A stretch of DNA of 43,100 nt from Rhodocyclaceae bacterium (GTDB taxonomy: Bacteria > Pseudomonadota > Gammaproteobacteria > Burkholderiales > CAIKXV01), in assembly GCA_020248265.1 (NCBI GenBank), contig JADCHX010000016.1, forward strand, positions 1 to 43,100. The letters run 5' to 3'. Positions 1 through 43,100 of the stretch are shown here, piece after piece (the stretch's first letter is position 1; the number at the start of each line of letters is the position of its first letter). A program made the translations under genes and the position numbers. The notes beneath the pieces were generated by a model. The model was not told where the DNA came from, did not search any database, and saw nothing but the letters and a program-made list of their open reading frames with translations.

Positions 1-1170
1 GGCCGCCACCAGTGCGTAGCTCCACGCGCCGCTGCCGTTCGCCGTCACCGTGCGAACGTTCCCCGTGCCCAGCGTGAGTGCGACCGTGGTGTTCGCTTCT
101 GCCGTGCCGCTGATCGTGGCGCCCTGCTCGGTCGCATTCACGACGTCGTCACCCGCAACGGTCGAGATCACCGGCGCCGCAGGCACCTGCGTGTCGATCG
201 TGATGCTTAGTGTGCCCGCCGTGCTCGTATTGCCCGCAGCGTCGCGCGCGGTGGCCGAGATCGTCTCCGCCCCCTGCCCCATCGCCGTGATGTCGGCCGC
301 CACCAGCGTGTAGCTCCACGCGCCGCTGCCGTTCGCCGTCACCGTGCGCACGTTCCCCGCGCCCAGCGTGAGGTCGACCGTCGCGTTCGCTTCCGCCGTA
401 CCGCTGATCGTGCCGCCCTGCTCGGCGGCGTTGACCACGTCGTCGCCCGCCACCGGTGCAATCGCAGGCGCTGCAGGCGCCAGCGTGTCGACCGTGATCG
501 CTCGTGTACCCGTCGGTCCCGCGTTGCCCGCTTCGTCGAACGCGGAGGCCGAAAGCGTCACCCCGCCCTGACCCATCGCGGTAATGTCGGCTGCCACCAG
601 CGTGTAGCTCCACGCGCCACTGCCGTTCGCGGCTACCGTGCGGATGTTCCCGCCCAGCGTGAGACGTACCGCCGCATTTGCTTCCGCCGTACCGATGATC
701 GTGGCGCCCTGCTCGGCGGCGTTGACGAAATCGTCGCCAGCCACCTGGGAAATCGCCGGCGCCGCAGGCGCCAGCGTATCGATTGCGACGATCCTGGTTC
801 CCGCTGAGCTCGTGTTGCCCGCTACGTCGCGCGCAGTGGCCGACAGCGTTTCAGGGCCCTGGCCCATCGCGGTAATGTCGGCCGCCACCAGCGTATAGCT
901 CCACGCGCCGCCGCCGTTCGCCGTCACCGTGCGAACGTTGCCCGTGCCCAGCGTGAGTGCGACCGTCGCGTTCGCTTCCGCCGTGCCACTGATCGTGGCG
1001 GCCTGCTCGGCGGCGTTGACAACGTCGTCGCCCGCCACCAGGCCGATGCTCGGCGCGGCCGGTGCCTGCGTGTCGATGACGATCGAGTACGCGGTGCTGG
1101 CGGCGCCCTGGTTGCCCACCGCGCTCTCGATCACCGCCCTGAACGCGTGCGCCCCCTCCGGCAGCGCCGG
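1..1170 (-). repeat. Near-identical tandem Ig-domain repeats inside the adhesin
   Basis: Four successive copies of a unit coding for one Ig-like domain are very similar at the DNA level. Measured from a shared anchor near 146, 440, 731 and 1025 the spacing is 294, 291 and 294 bases (98, 97, 98 codons). Each copy carries VAGDD, VNAAEQ, GTAEAN, GAWSYTL and AADITAMGQG-type motifs. Repeats further from the left edge are much more divergent. The array continues to the left of the window. Such high identity points to recent duplication or ongoing homogenisation. Confidence 0.85.
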
Positions 1171-4100
1171 GGTGGTGTAGCTCCAGGTCGAACCGGTGAC
1201 CGTCGCGCTTCCGAGCCGAGTGTCGCCGTCATAAACGGCAACTACCCCTGTGCCGAGCGTGCCGGTGATCGCCCCCGTGAGGGTCGGTGTGACATCGTCG
1301 GTGCGCCCGCCGGACGCCACCGGCCCAGTGAACAAACCCGCGTCGTCCGTGATGCCGGTGATGCTCGTCGTCGCCGCTGGGAGCGCCGCGTCGACGGTGA
1401 CCGCGTATTGGGTGCCGGTCGCCCCGCTGTTGCCGGCGCGGTCCTCGACCGCTGCGGTGAATCGGTGAACGGCGTTGGACAGGCCTGCCGTCGCAAATGT
1501 CCAGTTTGTGCCAGTGACCTGCGCGGTCCCGAGGCGCACGCCGTCGTCGTAGACTGCCACCACATCGCCCGGGGCGAGCGCCGCGCTGACGGTGCCCGCG
1601 ACCTGAAGCGTGTTGTCCGAGGTAAGCCCCCCGACCGCGACGGTCGTCCCGGGAACCCCGGCCGAGTCGGTGTTCCGGACTGCCGTCACCGCGGCTGTGG
1701 ATGTCGGGGCGGTCGTGTCGAGGGTAAAGCCACCGACGCTGCTCGGCGAGCTCGAGTTGCCCGCCACGTCGGTCACCACGGTAGACACCGTTACCGCTCC
1801 ATCGCCCAGCGTCGCACGCTGGGCCGCATTGAGCGTCACCGCCTGGGCACTGCCGTTACCGGTCAGCGTACGGCTCACCGTACCGGAGGCACCGGTGAGG
1901 GTGACGGCGATCTCGGCACCCGACTCCGCGCTCACCGACAGCACGCCGGACGGCGCCGTTGCCTCCGCAGCGGTGAGGAACCCGTCGCCGACCCCGACGA
2001 TGACCGGAGTGGGCGGCGTGAGATCGACGATGACCCTGCCAGGGAGCGCTGAAGGTGCACTCGCGTTGCCGGCGGCATCGACTTGCCGCACCAGGATCGC
2101 GCCGCTGGTGTACGCGCCCGCCGGCAGCGAGAAGGCAGTGCCGCTGCCCGCGAGCCACTGCGCGTCATTGTCGAGGCTGTACTGCCAGTTCGCCCCCGAC
2201 TCCAGCCCGGTGATCACGACGCTCGGGTCGCGGGTCACCCGGTCGATTGCGCTGCGACCAGTGTCCTGGGCGAGCGCGGCGATCAGCGTACCCGGTGCGA
2301 CGGTGTCGAGTACGAACCCACCTTCGGTACGCGTCGTCGCATTGCCCGCTGCGTCGACGCTCTGGGTGCTGGCGGTGACGCTACCCTGCCCGAGTGCCGC
2401 GAGGTCGGCGGGCGACAGCACGACCGAGACGGTGCCGGCGGCCACCGCTTTGGTGACCGTTCCGCTGCTGCCGGCGAACACTACACTGGTCGTGGCGCCG
2501 CTCTCCGAGACCACGCGAACCACCCCGGTTGCTGCGGCGGCTTCCGCCGCGGTCAACTGACCGTCGTGCAGCGGCGTGACGCTCAGCGTGGGCGCGAGCG
2601 TGTCGAGCGTGAATGCACCCTGGCTCCTCGATACCGCGTTGCCGGCTGCGTCTGTCGCCGTGGTCTGCACGGTAACGGCGCCCTGGCCAAGCTGTGCCAC
2701 GTCCGCGGCATTCAGGACCACGGCCTGCGCCGTGCTGTCGCCGACGAGCGTCTTCGCCACCGTTCCTGCAGTGCCGGTGAACTGTACGGTCACCGCTGCG
2801 CCCGGCTCGGCGTTCACCCGGATGACGCCTTGCGCAGCGGTCGCTTCCGAAAGGGTCTTGGCGTTGTCGCCGACCGCCACCACTCCGAGTGCTGGATCAC
2901 CGGTGTCGAGCACGAAACTGCCCATCGAGCGCAGACGGACATTGCCCGCCGCGTCGGTGGCCCTGGCGAGGATGCTGACCGGCCCCTCGCCGAGGGTGAC
3001 GAGTTCGGTCACGGACAGCGCATCCACCGTCTGTGCGGCACCCGTCGCCGCGAGGCTGCGCGTGACGGTGCCCAGCGAACCGCTGAGGGACACGTTCACG
3101 GCGGCACCGGACTCGGCGGTGACCGTGAGGAAGGGTGCGGTCGCTTCGGCGCGGGTCCTTGCTGCGTCGCCGGAGTCGGTTACCGCGAGGGCCGGTGCAG
3201 TGGTGTCGAGGGTGTAGCTGCGCGCGGTCTCAGGACCCTTGTTGCCGGCAAGGTCACTCACCTGCAGGCGGATGGTGTTCGCACCCGGAACCAGCGTCAC
3301 CCCGGCCCACGACACGGTGGTGCCGCTGACCGAGGCGGTGATGTCGGTCCGCGGGGTGCCGCCGTCTACCGAGGCGAAGAGGCGCTCGGAGGGGGCAAGC
3401 GGCGCACTCAGCGTCGCGGTCACCGTCTGCGCCGCGCTGCGGGTGAGGAAGTCGGTGCTGCTGCTGCCGGTATCGGCGGAGAGCGCGATGGCCGAGATCG
3501 TCGTGACCGGTGCCACGGTGTCGATACGCACGACGAGGGACGAGGATGCCGTACTCGTGTTGCCAGCGAGGTCTACGATCTTCGCGGTGAGCGCGCGGTC
3601 GCCGTCGAGCAACGTTCCGGAAGCGATGTCGACATAGCCGTTGTCGATGTTCGTTTCGGTGAGTACCGTGCTGCCGACGAGCCCGCCGTCGGCGAAGAGC
3701 TGTACCGTGTTGCCCGTGGTTGCCGCCTGGCCGTCGGTCCGGGCGACATCGAAGCGCACCCGCAGCGTCGGGGCGGCGGAGGCGGTGATGTCGTCGCTGC
3801 TCGACGAGCCGCTGTCGGACTGCGGACGCAGGTCGGGCGCCTGGGTCGGGGCGAGCGGAGCGATCGTGTCGAGAATGTCCGCCTGGGCCTGGGTGATCGC
3901 GTTGAGGTCGGTGGCAGCCGCGATCTCGACGGTGGCGTTGCTTATCTCCGTGTCCGGGCGGGTGGTGGCCGGACCGGCGGCGGTGAGCAGCGCAGGTCCG
4001 AGATCGACCGAGGGCCCGCCGGCGGTGACCGCCGACACGAGGTTGTCGAACACCTCGTTCGATGCCTGGGTACCGTCGAGCCCTGCCGCAGGTGCCGATG

Positions 4101-7100
4101 CCGCCAGCATGGCCACGGTCGCGATCTGGGCGGCCGCCTTCTGGACCGCCAGCGCCTCCGCGTCGCCGGGCGCCGCGGTCAGCGGGTCGAACGTGAGCAG
4201 GTCGACCCCGGGCGGAAGACCGAGCTTCGCGACAATCTGCGCCACGGCATCGGACGAAGACAGCGCGTTGGCCTCGGCGTAGCCCTGCACCAGCGTGGTC
4301 AGCGGCGACACCGTCGTCGAGCCCTGCGGCGCGCGGTAGATCACCGTGTTCGGAACGCCAGTATCGATGTTGACGCCACCGATCGCCATGATCGTCCCGG
4401 CGGGCGTGCTCGGGGGCAGGAAGAAGTTGCCGCTGTCGTTGGTCACCCGGCCGGTGTCGACATCGGCCGTGCCGTCGAGGTCGGTGTCGATCCAGATCTG
4501 GGCGCCGCGGATGTAGCCGTCGATCAGGCTGCCGCTGGGCACGCTGACGGGCTGCCCGGTGAGCGCAGCCGCCGCATTGCCTGCGACATCGCGGATGGCG
4601 CCGGTGCCGGGAGGCACATAGGAAAGGGTAACCGCGCTGCCGTTGGGCACGGCGGCAGCCAGCGTGAGCACGATCTGGATCCCGGTCACGGCCGCGCCGG
4701 TGACGGCGACCGGCGCGCCGTCGGCCGTCACGGTGAAGCTCTCCGCGGCAGGCGCCACGCCGGAATCCAGGGCCGTGGCTTCGGTATACGCAAGTATCAG
4801 GGTGTCGCCGTTGAGCTCGGCCGAGGCCAGCACGGGTGCGACGGTGTCGATCGCGAACGAGGTCCCGGACGACGTGGTGACATTGCCCGCCGCATCGGTC
4901 GCGATCGCCGATACGGCGACATTGCCCTGGCCCAGCGTCGTGAGTTCGGTGCCCGACAACGACAGGGTCTGCGCCACCCCGGTGCCGGTGACCGCGCGGT
5001 TGACCGTACCCGAGGAACCGGTCAGCGTGACGTTCGCCGTCACGCCGTTCTCGACAGTGATCGTCAGCGCACCGGCGCCCGCTTCCGCTGCGGTCTTGGC
5101 GGCATCGCCAGCGACGCTCACCGAGAGCGACGGCGCCAGCGTGTCGAGCGTGAACGCGCCCGAGCTGCTGCTCGTGACGTTGCCGGCAGCATCGGCCGCG
5201 GTGGTGGTGACACTGACCGAGCCTTCACCGAGGGTGGCGAGCTCGGACACGGAGAGCGTCACCGCCTGCACCGACCCGGTACCGGTGAGCGCGCGCGTGA
5301 CTACGCCCGACTGTCCGGTGAACTGGACCAGGACGGCCGCCCCGGTAGCGGCGGTGATGCCGATGACCCCAGCGGTGTCCGTCGCCTCGACGGCGGTCTT
5401 GTCCGCATCCCCGCGCGCCTGCACGGTGAGGCTGGGCGGCGTCGTGAACAGGCTGAACCCGCCGGTAGCGCTGGAGATGGTGTTGCCGGCCGCGTCGTTC
5501 ACGTTGGTGGCAACGGCGACCGCGCCGTTGCCCAGCGTGACGACCTCGCCCGGCGTGAGGGCGACCGGTTGCGCGCTGCCCGTACCGACGAGCGTCTTCG
5601 TTACCGAACCCGAGCCGCCGGTGAACGTCACGGTCACGCTCGCGCCGCTTTCGGCCGTCACCGTGAGCACACCGCCTGCGGCGGCCGCCGAGGCGGCGGA
5701 CTTCACGTTCGAGCCGATCGCCTGCACGCTTGCCGCGGGCGCCTGGGTGTCCAGCACGAAGCCGCCGGTCGTACGCGTCGTCACGTTGCCGGCGAGGTCG
5801 GTTGCCGTCGTCGTCACGGTCACCGGACCTTCGCCAAGCGTTGCCAGATTGGCGCTGTCGAGCGTCACGGCCTGTGCCGCGCCGGTCCCGGTGAGCGAAC
5901 GGGTGACTTGCCCGGCGGAGCCCGCGATCACGACCGCCACCGCAGCGCCGGTCTCGGCCGTGACCTCGACGACACCGCCGGCCGCAGTGGCTTCAGCTGC
6001 CGTCTTCGCCGCATCGCCCATCGCGGCGACGGAAAGCGTCGGGGCCGCGCCGTCGATCGTCACCGACAGCGCAGCAGACTGCGCGCTCGCGTTCCCGCCT
6101 GTGTCGGTCAGCCTCGCGCTCAGACTTTGCGGGCCGTCGGCGAGCGGATTGAGCGTGAGGTCGATCCGGCCTGCAGCGATGTCCGCCGCAGACAGCACCG
6201 CTACCGCCACCACCGTGGTTCCCGCGAACACCCGGACGGTGTCGCCGGCCACGGCCGCACTGCCATCGAGGGCGGTGGTGTTGAAGGTGATCCGTACCGT
6301 CGGCGTCGGGTTGCGCGTGATGTTGTCGGTGGCGGATCCACCGGTGTCGGAAGCCGCCAGCACGTCAGGAGCGGCGATGGGCGCGGCCGGTGCCGTGCGG
6401 TCGAGCGACTGCCCCTGGACCAGCGACACCTGCCCGATGGAGGTCGCGCTGGCGATACTGCTGGACGTGCTCGCTAGCGCCGCCGACGTCGACGTCGTCA
6501 CCCGACCGCCGCCGCTACCCGTGAGCAACGCATCGATCGTCGCATTGGCGGTGAGATCGATCGCCGTGCCGCCGCCAATGGCGGCGAGCGTGTTGGCGAC
6601 GATCGTGCTCGCCACCTGCGCCGCACTGAGCCCCGTCGCCGGGTTGGCCATGGCCGTCATCAGCAGAGAGGCGAACTGGGCGGCCGCCTTCTGCACCGGC
6701 AGCGCGCTGGTGTCCGTGGCGGACAGTGGATCGTAGGTAAGCAGATCGACGCCGGGCAGCCCGAGGCCGTTCTGGATCACGGTTTCGGCCGCGGACGCGC
6801 TCAAGCCTGGATTGGCCTTCATGTAGGCGTCGATCAGCGTGGTGATCGGGTTCACCACCGAGGCTCCCGCCGGCGCGCGCAACGCGACCGTATTGACGAT
6901 GCCGGTGTCGATGTTGACCCCGCCCACGGCGATTACCGCGCCGACCGGTGCGCCAGGCGGCAGGAAGAAGTTGCCATTGGCATCGGTCAGCACGCCCACG
7001 AGCGCCTCGCCCGATTCGGCGACCCCGTTGCCATTGGCATCGATGTAGATCTGCGCGCCGCGCACGTAGCCGTCGGCCACGATGCCCGACGAGAAGGCGA

Positions 7101-38731: not shown

Positions 38732-39490
38732 ATGGATTCAAATTCCCGTCACCAGATCCTCAAGCGCCTGCAGACAGGTCTTGCCCGTGGTGCGCCGTTC
38801 GACCTGAGCACCCTGGCACGGATCGGAGTGTCTGCCCCGCTGGCTGCGCGCTACGCCGAAAGCGGCTGGCTAGTGCGCCTGGCACAGGGCGTGTACGCCT
38901 TCCCGAAGGACGATTTCGGGGTGTACGGCGCACTGATGTTCCTGCAACAGCGCGTGCCCGGGCTGCACATCGGCGGCAAGAGTGCGCTGGCGCTGCAGGG
39001 CGTTCGACACAACCTGGGCGTCCGCGAGCCCCTGGTACTTTGGGGTGATGTCCGCTTCGCCCTGCCCGACTGGTTCACCTCGAGGTTTCCCGCACGCTAC
39101 GTGCACGCGCGCTTGTTCGACTGGCCGGATGAGACGTTGCCAGCCAGGACCGTGGTGACGCCCGCCGGGCTGCCCGACGGACTGCGCGTGTCGGCATCGG
39201 AGCGCGCCGTGCTGGAGCTGCTGTACGACGTCGGCACCCGCCAGAGCCTGGATGAGGCTCGCAACCTGTTCGACGGGGTGCGTTCGCCTCGCAAGGAACT
39301 GATGGGCCAGTTGCTGGCCAGTTGCACCAACGTGAAGACCGTGCGGCTCTTCCTGACGTGGGCCCGTGAGAGCGGCCTGCTGGACGTGGACGATCTGCGC
39401 GCTCGCTACCCGCTGCGCACCGGCAGCGACAAGCGCTGGATGAGCCGGATGCCCGACGGCACCTTGTTGACGCTCAAGCCCCATGGATAA
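38732..39490 (+). CDS. AbiEi-family antitoxin of a type IV toxin-antitoxin system
   Basis: This 252-residue protein has an N-terminal winged-helix DNA-binding part (LARIGVSAPLAARYAESGWL, VRLAQGVYAFPKDD) followed by the AbiEi central and C-terminal domain (GLHIGGKSALALQGVRHNLG, PARTVVTPAGLPDGLRVSAS, ERAVLELLYDV). AbiEi proteins repress their operon and antagonise the nucleotidyltransferase toxin AbiEii; the pair gives phage abortive infection in some hosts. Its stop overlaps the toxin ATG by 8 bases. The sequence is complete. No Shine-Dalgarno is seen before its ATG. Confidence 0.82.
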   Translation: MDSNSRHQILKRLQTGLARGAPFDLSTLARIGVSAPLAARYAESGWLVRLAQGVYAFPKDDFGVYGALMFLQQRVPGLHIGGKSALALQGVRHNLGVREPLVLWGDVRFALPDWFTSRFPARYVHARLFDWPDETLPARTVVTPAGLPDGLRVSASERAVLELLYDVGTRQSLDEARNLFDGVRSPRKELMGQLLASCTNVKTVRLFLTWARESGLLDVDDLRARYPLRTGSDKRWMSRMPDGTLLTLKPHG

Positions 39491-40304
39491 GGGCTACGCG
39501 GACACCGTCCGCCTGTTGCTGACCGTCGCGCCCGAGGTGTTCGCCAACGACATCTTCGCGATGAAGGGCGGCACGGCGATCAACCTGTTCGTGCAGGACA
39601 TGCCTCGCCTGTCGGTGGACATCGACGTCGTGTTCCAGCCGAGGCAGATGCCGCGGGACGAAGCCGTGGCCGCAATCGACGCTGAGCTTGCCGCCATCGG
39701 GCAACGTGTCGCGTCTCTGGGTCTGCGGGCGCGGCGCTTGCGCGGCGCGGACGCCATCGACACCAAGCTGATCGTCGAGTTCGATGCTCCGATCCTGGCA
39801 CGCGACGAGCTGTATGCCGGCAAGCTGGTGGCAGCACTCGACCGGCAGCACCCGCGAGACCTCTTCGACGTTTAGCAGCATTACGAATCGGGCGGCCTGA
39901 CCGACGCCATGGTCGAGTGTTTCGTGGTCTACCTCGCGGGCCACAACCCGCCGCTGCACGAAGTGCTCTTCGGCAATGACAAGGACATCGCTGCCGATTA
40001 CGAACGCGCTTTCGCAGGCATGACAGAAGTGCCGTGCACGCTCGATACCCTGCGCGCCGCCCGCGCCCGACTGCGGCTTGAGTTGCCACACCCCCTGACT
40101 GCCATGCACCGGCAGTTCCTGAGTGGACTGGTGCGCGCCGAGCCGGACTGGTCTTTGATGCAGTACCCCCACGCGGCAGAGCTGCCGGCCCTGCGTTGGA
40201 AGCTCGCCAACCTGGAGACTTTCCGAAAACGACGGCCCGCGGATTTCCAAGCCCAGGCCGAGGCGCTCGATGCCGGCCTGAATCGCGTCGGTGCGCTACG
40301 ATGA
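39483..40304 (+). pseudogene. AbiEii nucleotidyltransferase toxin with in-frame TAG
   Basis: From ATG 39483 the frame has the nucleotidyltransferase motif MKGGTAINLFV and the metal Asp pair SVDIDVVF, then RLRGADAIDTKLIVEF and LARDELYAGKLVAALDRQHP with RDLFDV. A TAG at 39873-39875 (codon 131) ends it. In the same frame the protein would continue with QHYESGGLTDAMVECFVVYL to a TGA at 40304, giving a full-length AbiEii of about 272 residues. All catalytic motifs are before the stop, but the C-terminal helical part is lost. Readthrough would need a suppressor; the toxin is probably inactive. It abuts the intact AbiEi. Confidence 0.78.
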
Positions 40305-41055: not shown

Positions 41056-41417
41056 CACCCGGATCGCCAGAGACGAGGACAGCTTCACCACGCTCAGCCG
41101 GAGGAATGCGACCGGCCGGGGACATTGCAATCGCTGCTCGGCCGAGTCCTGACATTCGAATGTCCGCTCGAGACTGGTTGCGGACGTTCGGACTTGGTCG
41201 GTGAATGTCGGCGATCGCCGATACCTGCCGTTGGCCAACTTCTCTGGCGGCTGTCCGCTGTGCCTCGGAACTTGACGCTCGGCGGCCGCGGAGCGCATAG
41301 GCGGGTCAGCGGCTCGGCGACGACGTCCGGCAAACGACTGCTCCCACTGGAGTCGAGCGGTCGCTGCCGACCCAAAGCCGAAGTCTGCCTAGGCGAGTGA
41401 GTTGCCCAAAAGCCGTC
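41056..41417. other. Non-coding stretch beside the attC-like site
   Basis: About 360 bases without a supported gene. It includes a short hairpin (GTCCGC/GCGGAC near 41162) and an exact 14-bp palindrome TCGGCGATCGCCGA at 41208-41221. Many short direct and inverted stretches make it look like decayed mobile or intergenic mosaic DNA of the type that often flanks cassettes. Confidence 0.5.
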
Positions 41418-41531
41418 GCTCAACGTGAAGGTGACCGGCACGTTGCGGCAAGGCGCCGCGAGGCTCCGTCGGATATCCTGCACCTCGCGGCGCCTTGCCG
41501 CAACGTGTCCGAGTCGAACGACCTGTTAGAC
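41418..41531 (-). other. attC-like recombination site (integron cassette)
   Basis: Read on the minus strand, in the sense of the gene beside it, the site starts with GTCTAAC (41531-41525, fits RYYYAAC), then AGGTC and GTTCGAC, an exact 25-bp inverted repeat (41507-41483 with 41463-41439) around a 19-base loop, then CCGGTCACCTTCAC and GTTGAGC (41424-41418, fits GTTRRRY). The outer parts pair only imperfectly and leave unpaired bases, as expected of attC. Total length is 114 bp, within the 57-141 range. It begins 26 bases after the stop of the minus-strand gene, the correct side and orientation for a cassette attC. Confidence 0.7.
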
Positions 41532-41556
41532 CGCTGCTCGTGCGTGACACGGTTGC

Positions 41557-42753
41557 TCATGGGTTGCTCGAGCCACTCAAAAACGGAACGAGGCGATCAT
41601 TTATGAAGTGATTCGGCCGCCAACCTTTCAGGAGTTTCTCGATCAGGAAGTTATCGAAGAGCCCTGCCGCGAATCCAGCCATCGGATTCGTTGCGTCTGC
41701 GGCTAGGGTGAGCAGATATCTGATTACCTTTGACCTCGGTGTCTGTATCCAGTCTTGAGAGGAGATGGTGCGCAAATACTCACGTGCCAGCCCCTCGTCG
41801 GGGTTTGTTGACTTGAGCCACTCTCGAAACTTTGCCGACTTATCCAAGAGGATCATAAACTCCTGAAACGATCTTGCTCCAGAATCCACTTGTTCCGCGA
41901 CAGTAGGCATGTCTGGCAGAACCACCTCAGAAAAGTCTTGACGCGCCTTCGCGTTCATCTGTGAGCGCTTCAGCAGCACGTCCACCTTCAAGCGAATTAC
42001 CGAGGACGTCACTGCAGACGTCACGAAGTCTCCTCCGTAGTGCGCAGCAAGTGCAAGGTCCGCGCGGGCGTCTTGAACGTGACTCAAGATGTGGGCTGTC
42101 GTAAGTGGTTCTACAGAGGGCGTCATCGCCGCTCGGGCGCGATTAACTCGTTCGTAGTCGACGTTGTCGAAGAAGAAGAAGCCCTGCTGGCCCTTAATGA
42201 TTTCAACCTTCAAGTCGGGGCCAGGGCGATAGCCTCCAGTCGTCCGGGCAAGGATCTCGGAGAAAGCGGTCGTCAGATACGCGGTGTCGTTCAGATCGCT
42301 GCGAGTTGCCTCAGGAATCCCGCCTTGTATGAAGTGGTTGCCGCTCATCTTTCGGATAGGGACTAGCCTCAGAAACGCCTCTGCGAACTTCTTTGACTGG
42401 TTTTTCGCAATGCCGCTCAGCTCAAGCTCATGCCTCAAGCGAGCTTCAGGGGTACCCAGTTTCTCCCCGGCAGCAGTTCCCGACAGAGTGAATGCGACGA
42501 AGTCGTGACACTGTGACACACCCACCGAATTGGTCATTGTTGCCAGCATTTCCTCGGTGTACACCGCCGAGAAGTCGGCACGTGCCACGAGCGACAACAG
42601 ACCTGAAGCTCCGATTTGACGAAGAAGCTCGAACAGGGTCTGCCGGTCGATGACGAGGTGCACCTTCTGATAGAACAGAAGCGCCTCTGCGATCTGACCC
42701 GCGGAAATTGGGTTCCCAGATTCGGCGCGACGAAGAACGACATGATCAAACAT
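41557..42753 (-). CDS. Unknown protein in a probable integron gene cassette
   Basis: This 398-residue protein matches no family I recognise. It is soluble, without signal peptide or membrane span, and rich in helices (GQIAEALLFYQKVHLVIDRQ, DLALAAHYGGDFVTSAVTSS). A Phe-rich strand (QQGFFFFDNVDYERV) is unusual. A 60-base sample inside it is 52 percent GC against 68 percent in the SEC-C gene beside it. The ATG is 10 bases after a GTTAGAC core and the stop is 26 bases before the attC-like site, both typical of a cassette gene. No Shine-Dalgarno is seen. I infer mobile-cassette origin; the function is unknown, defence or stress being only guesses. Confidence 0.7.
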   Translation of the reverse strand: MFDHVVLRRAESGNPISAGQIAEALLFYQKVHLVIDRQTLFELLRQIGASGLLSLVARADFSAVYTEEMLATMTNSVGVSQCHDFVAFTLSGTAAGEKLGTPEARLRHELELSGIAKNQSKKFAEAFLRLVPIRKMSGNHFIQGGIPEATRSDLNDTAYLTTAFSEILARTTGGYRPGPDLKVEIIKGQQGFFFFDNVDYERVNRARAAMTPSVEPLTTAHILSHVQDARADLALAAHYGGDFVTSAVTSSVIRLKVDVLLKRSQMNAKARQDFSEVVLPDMPTVAEQVDSGARSFQEFMILLDKSAKFREWLKSTNPDEGLAREYLRTISSQDWIQTPRSKVIRYLLTLAADATNPMAGFAAGLFDNFLIEKLLKGWRPNHFINDRLVPFLSGSSNP

Positions 42754-42763
42754 AGAACCTGCG

Positions 42764-42770
42764 GTCTAAC
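42764..42770 (-). other. GTTRRRY core at the cassette's 5' boundary
   Basis: On the minus strand GTTAGAC, followed by C and then GCAGGTTCT ATG, fits the R' core where cassettes join (cut after the first G). The matching RYYYAAC box of an upstream attC is not found in the next 150 bases; the end of the IS element there may have removed it. Confidence 0.5.
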
Positions 42771-42919: not shown

Positions 42920-43100
42920 TCACTGTAACTCGCATCTGGCCAGTTTCTCAATGTTGTGCACGAGGCAGAATAGTCGCCACTGGGTTCCGACCTTGTTCAG
43001 CCCGCGCAGCGTGAACCGGTTCAGGCGCTTGTTGTGCCGCAAGTTGCCGAACACCGGCTCCACGGTTCCGATCCGCTGGCTATAGCGACGCCTGCCCTCA
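42920..43100 (-). CDS. IS1182-type transposase, C-terminal part (5' end beyond the window)
   Basis: The minus-strand frame reads YSQRIGTVEPVFGNLRHNKR, LNRFTLRGLNKVGTQWRLFC and LVHNIEKLARCELQ to a TGA at 42920. This is the conserved end of IS1182-family DDE transposases, including the catalytic Glu in TVEPVFGN. The gene enters from the right edge, so the start and the other inverted repeat are not seen. The element end lies somewhere between the stop and 42770. Confidence 0.75.
   Translation of the reverse strand, partial: EGRRRYSQRIGTVEPVFGNLRHNKRLNRFTLRGLNKVGTQWRLFCLVHNIEKLARCELQ

Follow-up and report, generated by a model that had tools for sequence, protein, structure and literature searches.

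How does an integron gene cassette come to lie alone in a genome, with no integrase gene beside it? The question is raised by a 43,100-base stretch of DNA from a Rhodocyclaceae bacterium (hereafter the window, which is the whole of contig C16 in a draft genome of 4.55 Mb in 33 contigs), where an open reading frame (ORF) for a 398-residue protein of an unnamed family is followed by a recombination site of the attC type. A sequence-only reading had proposed a complete single cassette here, an attC without an integrase, and that proposal is borne out: to judge from its sequence, the window holds one complete integron gene cassette outline, comprising the 398-residue gene, its attC and a GTTAGAC core, with one attC in the contig (Table 1). 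Overall, we consider it likely that this cassette is complete and probably the last of an old chromosomal array, orphaned when an insertion sequence (IS) of the IS1182 family cut that array, with remnants of the integrase elsewhere in the genome.

AttC sites are bounded by an R'' box of the form RYYYAAC and an R' box of the form GTTRRRY, and two unpaired bases are expected in the L'' arm. Read directly on the minus strand (41531-41418), the sequence runs from GTCTAAC to GTTGAGC, matching both boxes, and its L'' and L' arms pair around unpaired extra bases (GTT-C-GAC opposite GGT-GAC and CGG-A-CAC opposite CGG-CAC), with one additional bulge in L'' beyond the two expected. The 114-bp length, the boxes and the 25-bp exact stem of the sequence-only reading all agree with this, and the covariance-model search that it had recommended for the region gave a significant match. 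The model, built with a hand-written structure from 25 attC sites beside integron integrase genes of other genomes (none from the source genome), matched the site over its full length (1-70) at 35.6 bits (E = 7.1e-6; the E-values are rough, the calibration being short, and the window was scored with filters off). The other 16 window matches at E<=10 score at most 9.6 bits, leaving the attC ahead by 26 bits. An independent box-and-pairing detector returned it as the sole site in the window, and a scan of the whole genome with the model recovered it again; a detector requiring exactly one unpaired base in L'' did not pick it up, and Rfam gave no match at gathering thresholds. The folding z-score is −9.48 (0 of 200 shuffles equally stable), a stability that is not specific to attC because any long exact palindrome would give such a value. 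We regard the site as a confirmed, genuine attC, with recombination by IntI as a prediction.

The remaining parts of the outline fall where a cassette would have them. The ORF lies upstream of the attC in cassette orientation, with 25 bases between its stop codon (41557-41559) and the site, which begins at the 26th base; the GTTAGAC core (42770-42764) was found, as had been read, 10 bases before the ATG at 42753, and this core also touches the IS end. At the cassette start, GTTAGACC complements GGTCTAAC at the R'' box exactly, over 8 bases. The gene is indeed low in guanine and cytosine (0.549, against 0.67 for the window). With one attC in a 43.1-kb contig, two being needed for a cluster of attC sites lacking an integrase (CALIN), the locus is a single attC site lacking an integrase (SALIN), which PMC12690207 presents as a one-attC CALIN; both arrays of orphan attC sites and solitary sites are already known (PMC12690207, PMC9024848). 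The window resembles these in its attC, its one correctly oriented ORF, the GTT core before that ORF and the lack of intI nearby; it differs in the IS that touches the cassette start at the core and in the unnamed gene family. A stretch 78% identical to the window attC, with a changed R'' end, is present on the Acidovorax sp. DW039 plasmid pACDW039_1 (L083 8001-8098), where the stem is followed by GTTAGACC and, about 30 bases further on, by a TIR-domain gene.

What the cassette encodes is less clear. Among 7997 candidates scored, 274 relatives of the protein were found at E<=1e-3, the closest 93% identical; 12 of the 120 relatives listed are on contigs of at least 20 kb and the remainder on shorter ones, which fits cassette life without being proof of it. 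Three of 399 genomes of the same order (its own included) and none of 10 congeners hold a relative. The protein gave no match in Pfam or PADLOC at E<=1 or in PHROGs at 1e-5, and its NCBIfam matches lie far below the cut-offs. Recurrence of the same gene in attC-bounded cassettes had been named as support, and a genome of another genus (G611; 99% complete, 2 contigs) has a relative at 22-23% identity with GTTAAGAGCC four bases before its ATG and an attC (31.6 bits, E = 4e-4, model 5-66 of 70) overlapping its stop codon, with no integron integrase match at E<=1e-40. On this reading of its ends, the G611 relative is a second case of a lone cassette carrying a gene of this kind. The claim of an undescribed cassette gene stands in that the family is unnamed, with the correction that the family is not only cassette-borne: the model scored no attC beside relatives from Rhizobacter (58%), Acidovorax (51%) and Polaromonas (39%), in six viral contigs (33-35%) or on a Buttiauxella plasmid (34%). 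Occurrence without an attC in unrelated genomes, which had been named in advance as grounds for rejecting the cassette, is thus found for relatives at 33-58% identity (three genome contigs, six viral contigs and the plasmid), and not for the window copy. The Rhizobacter relative (L019) has GTTAGGGCGCAC before the gene and GTGCGCCCTAAC behind, and a weak model match 2.3 kb beyond the gene (22.7 bits, E = 0.03). Behind the Polaromonas relative, from a metagenome-assembled genome, is a 144-bp inverted repeat with ACATAAC/GTTATGC ends (L021 3723-3866), which resembles an attC on inspection and to which the model gave no score.

All six viral-contig relatives lie among P2-type phage genes: four (L022, L023, L025 and L027) between the tail completion gene and the baseplate genes, one (L026) beside a baseplate gene at a contig end, and one (L024, 35% identical) between the replication nickase gene and the portal/terminase genes. 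The last position is that of the cos-proximal hotspot of P2-type phages, which holds old, tin and many defence genes and systems (PMC9122126, PMC9519451). Because relatives lie among P2-type genes, one of them in this documented hotspot, a single-gene anti-phage role was rated the most likely, and we tentatively suggest, by analogy with these positions, that the 398-residue product may be such a factor. Counting against this are that five of the six viral relatives lie outside the gpA-gpQ hotspot, that a FeoB gene comes after the Acidovorax relative and a DEAD-box helicase gene before the Polaromonas one (neither a defence context), and that domain libraries and fold search give no specific activity. 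The protein also differs from the genes of the hotspot in that no PADLOC-DB model matched it (0 families), which sets it apart from described defence proteins. Some other accessory or selfish function has about an even chance, the relatives at two different positions among P2-type genes, one a defence hotspot, being the evidence that speaks against it.

The downstream flank bears on whether the cassette was ever part of an array. In a congener (G377), a different attC (46.3 bits; L115 837-905) is joined to a flank 85% identical over 60 bases to that of the window, with the match setting in two bases ahead of the R' box, at the crossover. A common flank behind different attC sites is expected if different cassettes were joined to the same downstream sequence. 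As the model scored no further attC downstream, either in the window or in 8 kb of L115, the window cassette may be, and we think probably is, the last of its array. The genes behind the G377 array match contig C25 of the window's own genome (in pieces of 92.6%, 73% and 98%), most of the neighbourhood being in common, and C25 starts with the last 141 bases of the window. C16 would, from this overlap, continue into C25, and all three stretches (the window, C25 and the end of the G377 array) seem to derive from a single neighbourhood that was rearranged.

Alternatively, IntI may have inserted the cassette alone at a non-classical chromosomal site (attG), so that it never belonged to an array here. 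Insertion at attG is well established (cited in PMC12444791 and PMC12901181), and a single attC with unrelated flanks is what it would leave; lone attC sites are also found on contig C8 and, with the 23% relative and no intI match at 1e-40, in G611. The flank that follows a different attC in G377 fits an array tail instead, and the IS group on the other side of the cassette is mostly found in existing attC sites, which makes attG insertion unlikely. The array-tail reading that we prefer has its own difficulties. Pieces of the flank also occur elsewhere in the genus (contig C14 of G377 and the window's own C25), so that the end of the array is uncertain; the left boundary consists of 7-8 bases beside an IS end, the other copy of the GTT duplication being lost; the join to C25 rests on contig-end overlap, not reads; and among the relatives whose contigs were compared, the closest attC-bounded copy is at 23% identity. 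No empty, attC-less site was recognised among matches in the 10 congeners, from three of which four stretches were inspected, the left junction being covered by the IS.

That no integrase was in view holds for the neighbourhood, and not for the genome. On contig C4, the match to an integron integrase profile is split in two (profile positions 1-231 and 285-315), which indicates that part of the intI gene is missing. Beside it are a stretch resembling attI, the start of a first ORF and the apparent left end of another IS; this IS-like end recurs on two other contigs, and C4 ends at it. Contig C8 starts with an attI side 85-86% similar to that of C4 and, by DNA similarity, the first intI codons, with no integron integrase profile match. 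The attI-like ...CCCTACAACACGTT is present on both contigs, which diverge right after GTT, and ...CTCCCTACAACACGTT is common to both stretches, the difference beginning immediately behind it. The genome scan found at least six attC sites, four on contig C13, one on C8 and the window's own, a lower bound given that 150 of 9749 first-look candidates were scored; a direct scan added a fifth on C13, at the very start of the contig (28 bits). Together, the C4 and C8 remnants, the C13 array and the scattered attC sites indicate that the genome holds a dismembered integron system whose contigs break at or near IS elements. The lack of an integrase is local only: two broken integron starts persist in the genome.

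The IS end beside the cassette had been noted as a neighbour. An IS1182-family transposase match upholds its identity, and its position is not incidental, since the IS ends at the cassette core. The transposase C-terminus in the window (42920-43099, a fragment) matches PF13751 above the cut-off and NF033551 at 62.5 bits, below the cut-off. A complete relative in G377 (1763 bp, with a 508-residue transposase), whose DNA is 89% identical over the shared end, reaches 293.6 bits against NF033551 (cut-off 270) and belongs, like the named members ISPmo1 and ISKpn6, to the IS1182 family. This copy lies inside an integron array: an attC ending ...CTACGTT is followed directly by the element, which runs from GAGGCTGTGCAAATACCC to GGGTTTTTGCACAGCTTC, and then by GTTAGGCC. 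After it comes a GNAT cassette with its own attC, at whose core GTT the similar end of a second IS follows. In G377 (contig C48; L072 10972-12225), a second, different IS starts right after an attC GTT core, its transposase weakly matching IS5 and IS1182.

We searched 399 genomes of the order with the G377 transposase alone as query (E<=1e-60, at most three candidates scored per genome) and found at least 20 places in 16 genomes, which with two Pseudoalteromonas plasmids give 22 relatives. In 15 of these 22, an attC scored by the model lies within 3 bases of an IS end; the seven with no abutting match are L121, L124, L131, L134, L137, L139 and L140. Where both ends were found (n = 15), the outer 3-mers are equal in 13 (GTT/GTT or AAC/AAC, AAC reflecting the reverse orientation of the IS) and GTT/GTC in the other two. 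For this count we set aside by hand the right ends of L132, L133, L134 and L138, those of L137 and L139 fell to the thresholds, and L131, for which the best match goes no further than residue 325 of the query, was exempted from the right-end rule. A recount by hand gave 13 GTT, 6 AAC and 1 ATT among 20 left ends, 12 GTT, 5 AAC and 2 GTC among 19 right ends (window included), and equal flanks in 14 of 16 elements with both ends (L139 counted in); GTT or AAC stands at one end at least in 22 of 23 elements (window included), the exception being L138 (ATT). The recount judged the right ends of L133, L134 and L138 spurious (fragments with 5-6 mismatches to the repeat) and kept that of L137 (5 mismatches, then GTTAGGC). 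Such flanks are also present where no attC was scored, as in the Pseudoalteromonas element L139, about 40% identical, with GTT on both sides and no scored attC beside it.

Other members of the family served as controls. Five plasmid IS1182 elements at 25-30% identity (L141-L145, a set that excludes copies of ISPmo1 and ISKpn6) had no attC match within their 2.7-3.4 kb, unlike the attC-associated group. Their terminal repeats are clear in L141 and L144, fair in L142 and not reliable in L143 and L145; L141 has GGTA on both sides, inside an inverted repeat, and L144 has GGCA. In the attC-associated group the terminal repeat starts mostly GAGG or GAAG, so that a GTTGARG box still stands at the upstream attC and the downstream cassette still begins with GTT; at the level of sequence, insertion would visibly destroy neither. 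Insertion at attC R' cores with duplication of GTT is what comparison of the positions shows. We think it somewhat more probable than the contrary that this group targets the integron core, inserting in either orientation at the GTT of the IntI crossover, duplicating GTT, restoring a GTTGARG box and sitting there like a cassette, and that its decay would break arrays and leave orphan cassettes such as that of the window, here one with an undescribed protein family shared with accessory positions of P2-type phages.

It is highly improbable that the association merely reflects sampling from integron-rich genomes. The query itself was taken from an array, several attC sites are present at many of the loci (36 model matches at E<=1 in 20 IS loci), and the limit of three candidates per genome leaves the sample incomplete; the loci, on the other hand, were chosen by transposase similarity alone, the abutment of R' and IS end in 15 of 22 is exact to the base, and GTT or AAC flanks recur even where no attC was scored. 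Least credible of all is that the palindrome is a transcription terminator or an IS-related inverted repeat whose GTTRRRY and RYYYAAC boxes arose by chance, for although a GC-rich exact 25-bp stem folds whatever its origin, the full-length model match and its lead over the rest of the window, the complement between cassette start and R'', the similar stem before GTTAGACC and a TIR-domain gene on the Acidovorax plasmid and the G377 junction at the crossover all speak against it.

An association of IS elements with attC sites has a precedent in IS1111-type elements (the IS1111-attC group; ISKpn4, ISPst6), which occur at one end of attC sites according to PMC11187229, where Post and Hall 2009 and Tetu and Holmes 2008 are cited for them. 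That source gives the IS110/IS1111 family a DEDD transposase and RNA-guided target choice. The likeness lies in the location of the IS at one end of an attC. The window fragment, by contrast, matches DDE_Tnp families and not the DEDD type, and elements of its kind combine an IS1182 transposase (508 residues in the complete G377 copy) with terminal repeats and a duplication of 3 bp, GTT. No report of IS1182 at attC was found in the literature searched, which is weak evidence of novelty, as most subscription papers were outside its reach.

Table 1. Positions of the cassette, its junctions and related features in the window and elsewhere in the genome.
Feature	Location	Strand	Basis and remarks
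attC site, 114 bp	41418..41531	minus	Sequence, covariance model, genome scan; R'' GTCTAAC 41525-41531, R' GTTGAGC 41418-41424
Inner-stem arm, 25 bp, exact	41439..41463	plus	Sequence, fold
Inner-stem arm, partner	41483..41507	plus	Sequence, fold; exact 25-base complement of 41439-41463
Cassette gene, 398 residues, unnamed family	41557..42753	minus	ORF; 274 relatives
GTTAGAC core, cassette start	42764..42770	minus	Sequence; IS end abuts
Downstream flank	41367..41426	minus	85% identical, from the crossover, to sequence after a different attC in congener G377
IS1182-family IS, 3' end, cut by contig end	42771..43100	minus	Terminal repeat GGGTTTTTGCACAGCTTC at 42788-42771
attI-like stretches with intI remnants	L009 18796-20000 (C4 end); L068 1-300 (C8 start)		85-86% alike, both at contig ends
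Five-attC array	L103 (C13) 44-3234		Contig start; cassettes include a DUF433/DUF5615 pair and a BrnT/BrnA toxin-antitoxin pair
Lone attC	L104 (C8) 5891-5954	minus	Between a DUF4357 protein gene and a 245-residue gene without Pfam match

To the left of the cassette are 362 bases without an evident gene and then a UPF0149/SEC-C gene; to the right is the 3' end of the IS1182-family element, the contig stopping 330 bases upstream of the cassette. On the neighbouring contig C25, the IS gives way to part of another transposase (rve integrase core). An AbiEi-type antitoxin gene, followed by a 130-residue gene with a match to the initial portion of the AbiEii toxin family, lies near the cassette (38732-39875).

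The earlier interpretation of the site as an attC-bounded cassette is, overall, supported, and a course of events can be proposed for it. From how integrons work, IntI would have inserted the cassette between the G and TT of the core; an IS1182-family element would then have entered the GTT core at the cassette start, cutting off what lay upstream in the array; of this IS no more than the 3' end would have remained, that end now running into the other transposase piece. The integrase genes of the genome survive as the remnants on other contigs. Insertion at the core would explain how the cassette lost its neighbours. With only remnants of the integrase genes left, the cassette probably stays in place unless active IntI is provided in trans, and we infer a loss of mobility.

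Taken as a cassette, the window's example is an ordinary new member of a familiar type; what goes beyond it is the group of IS1182 elements at attC cores. Such a group would mean that attC is targeted in a second and independent manner, by a different kind of transposase, and would be a direct cause of integrase-less cassettes. Three predictions follow: insertion would go into folded attC, the attC would remain functional afterwards, and orphan cassettes would be found beside IS1182 ends. The 398-residue family, in turn, would be a candidate defence gene carried by both integron cassettes and P2-type phages.
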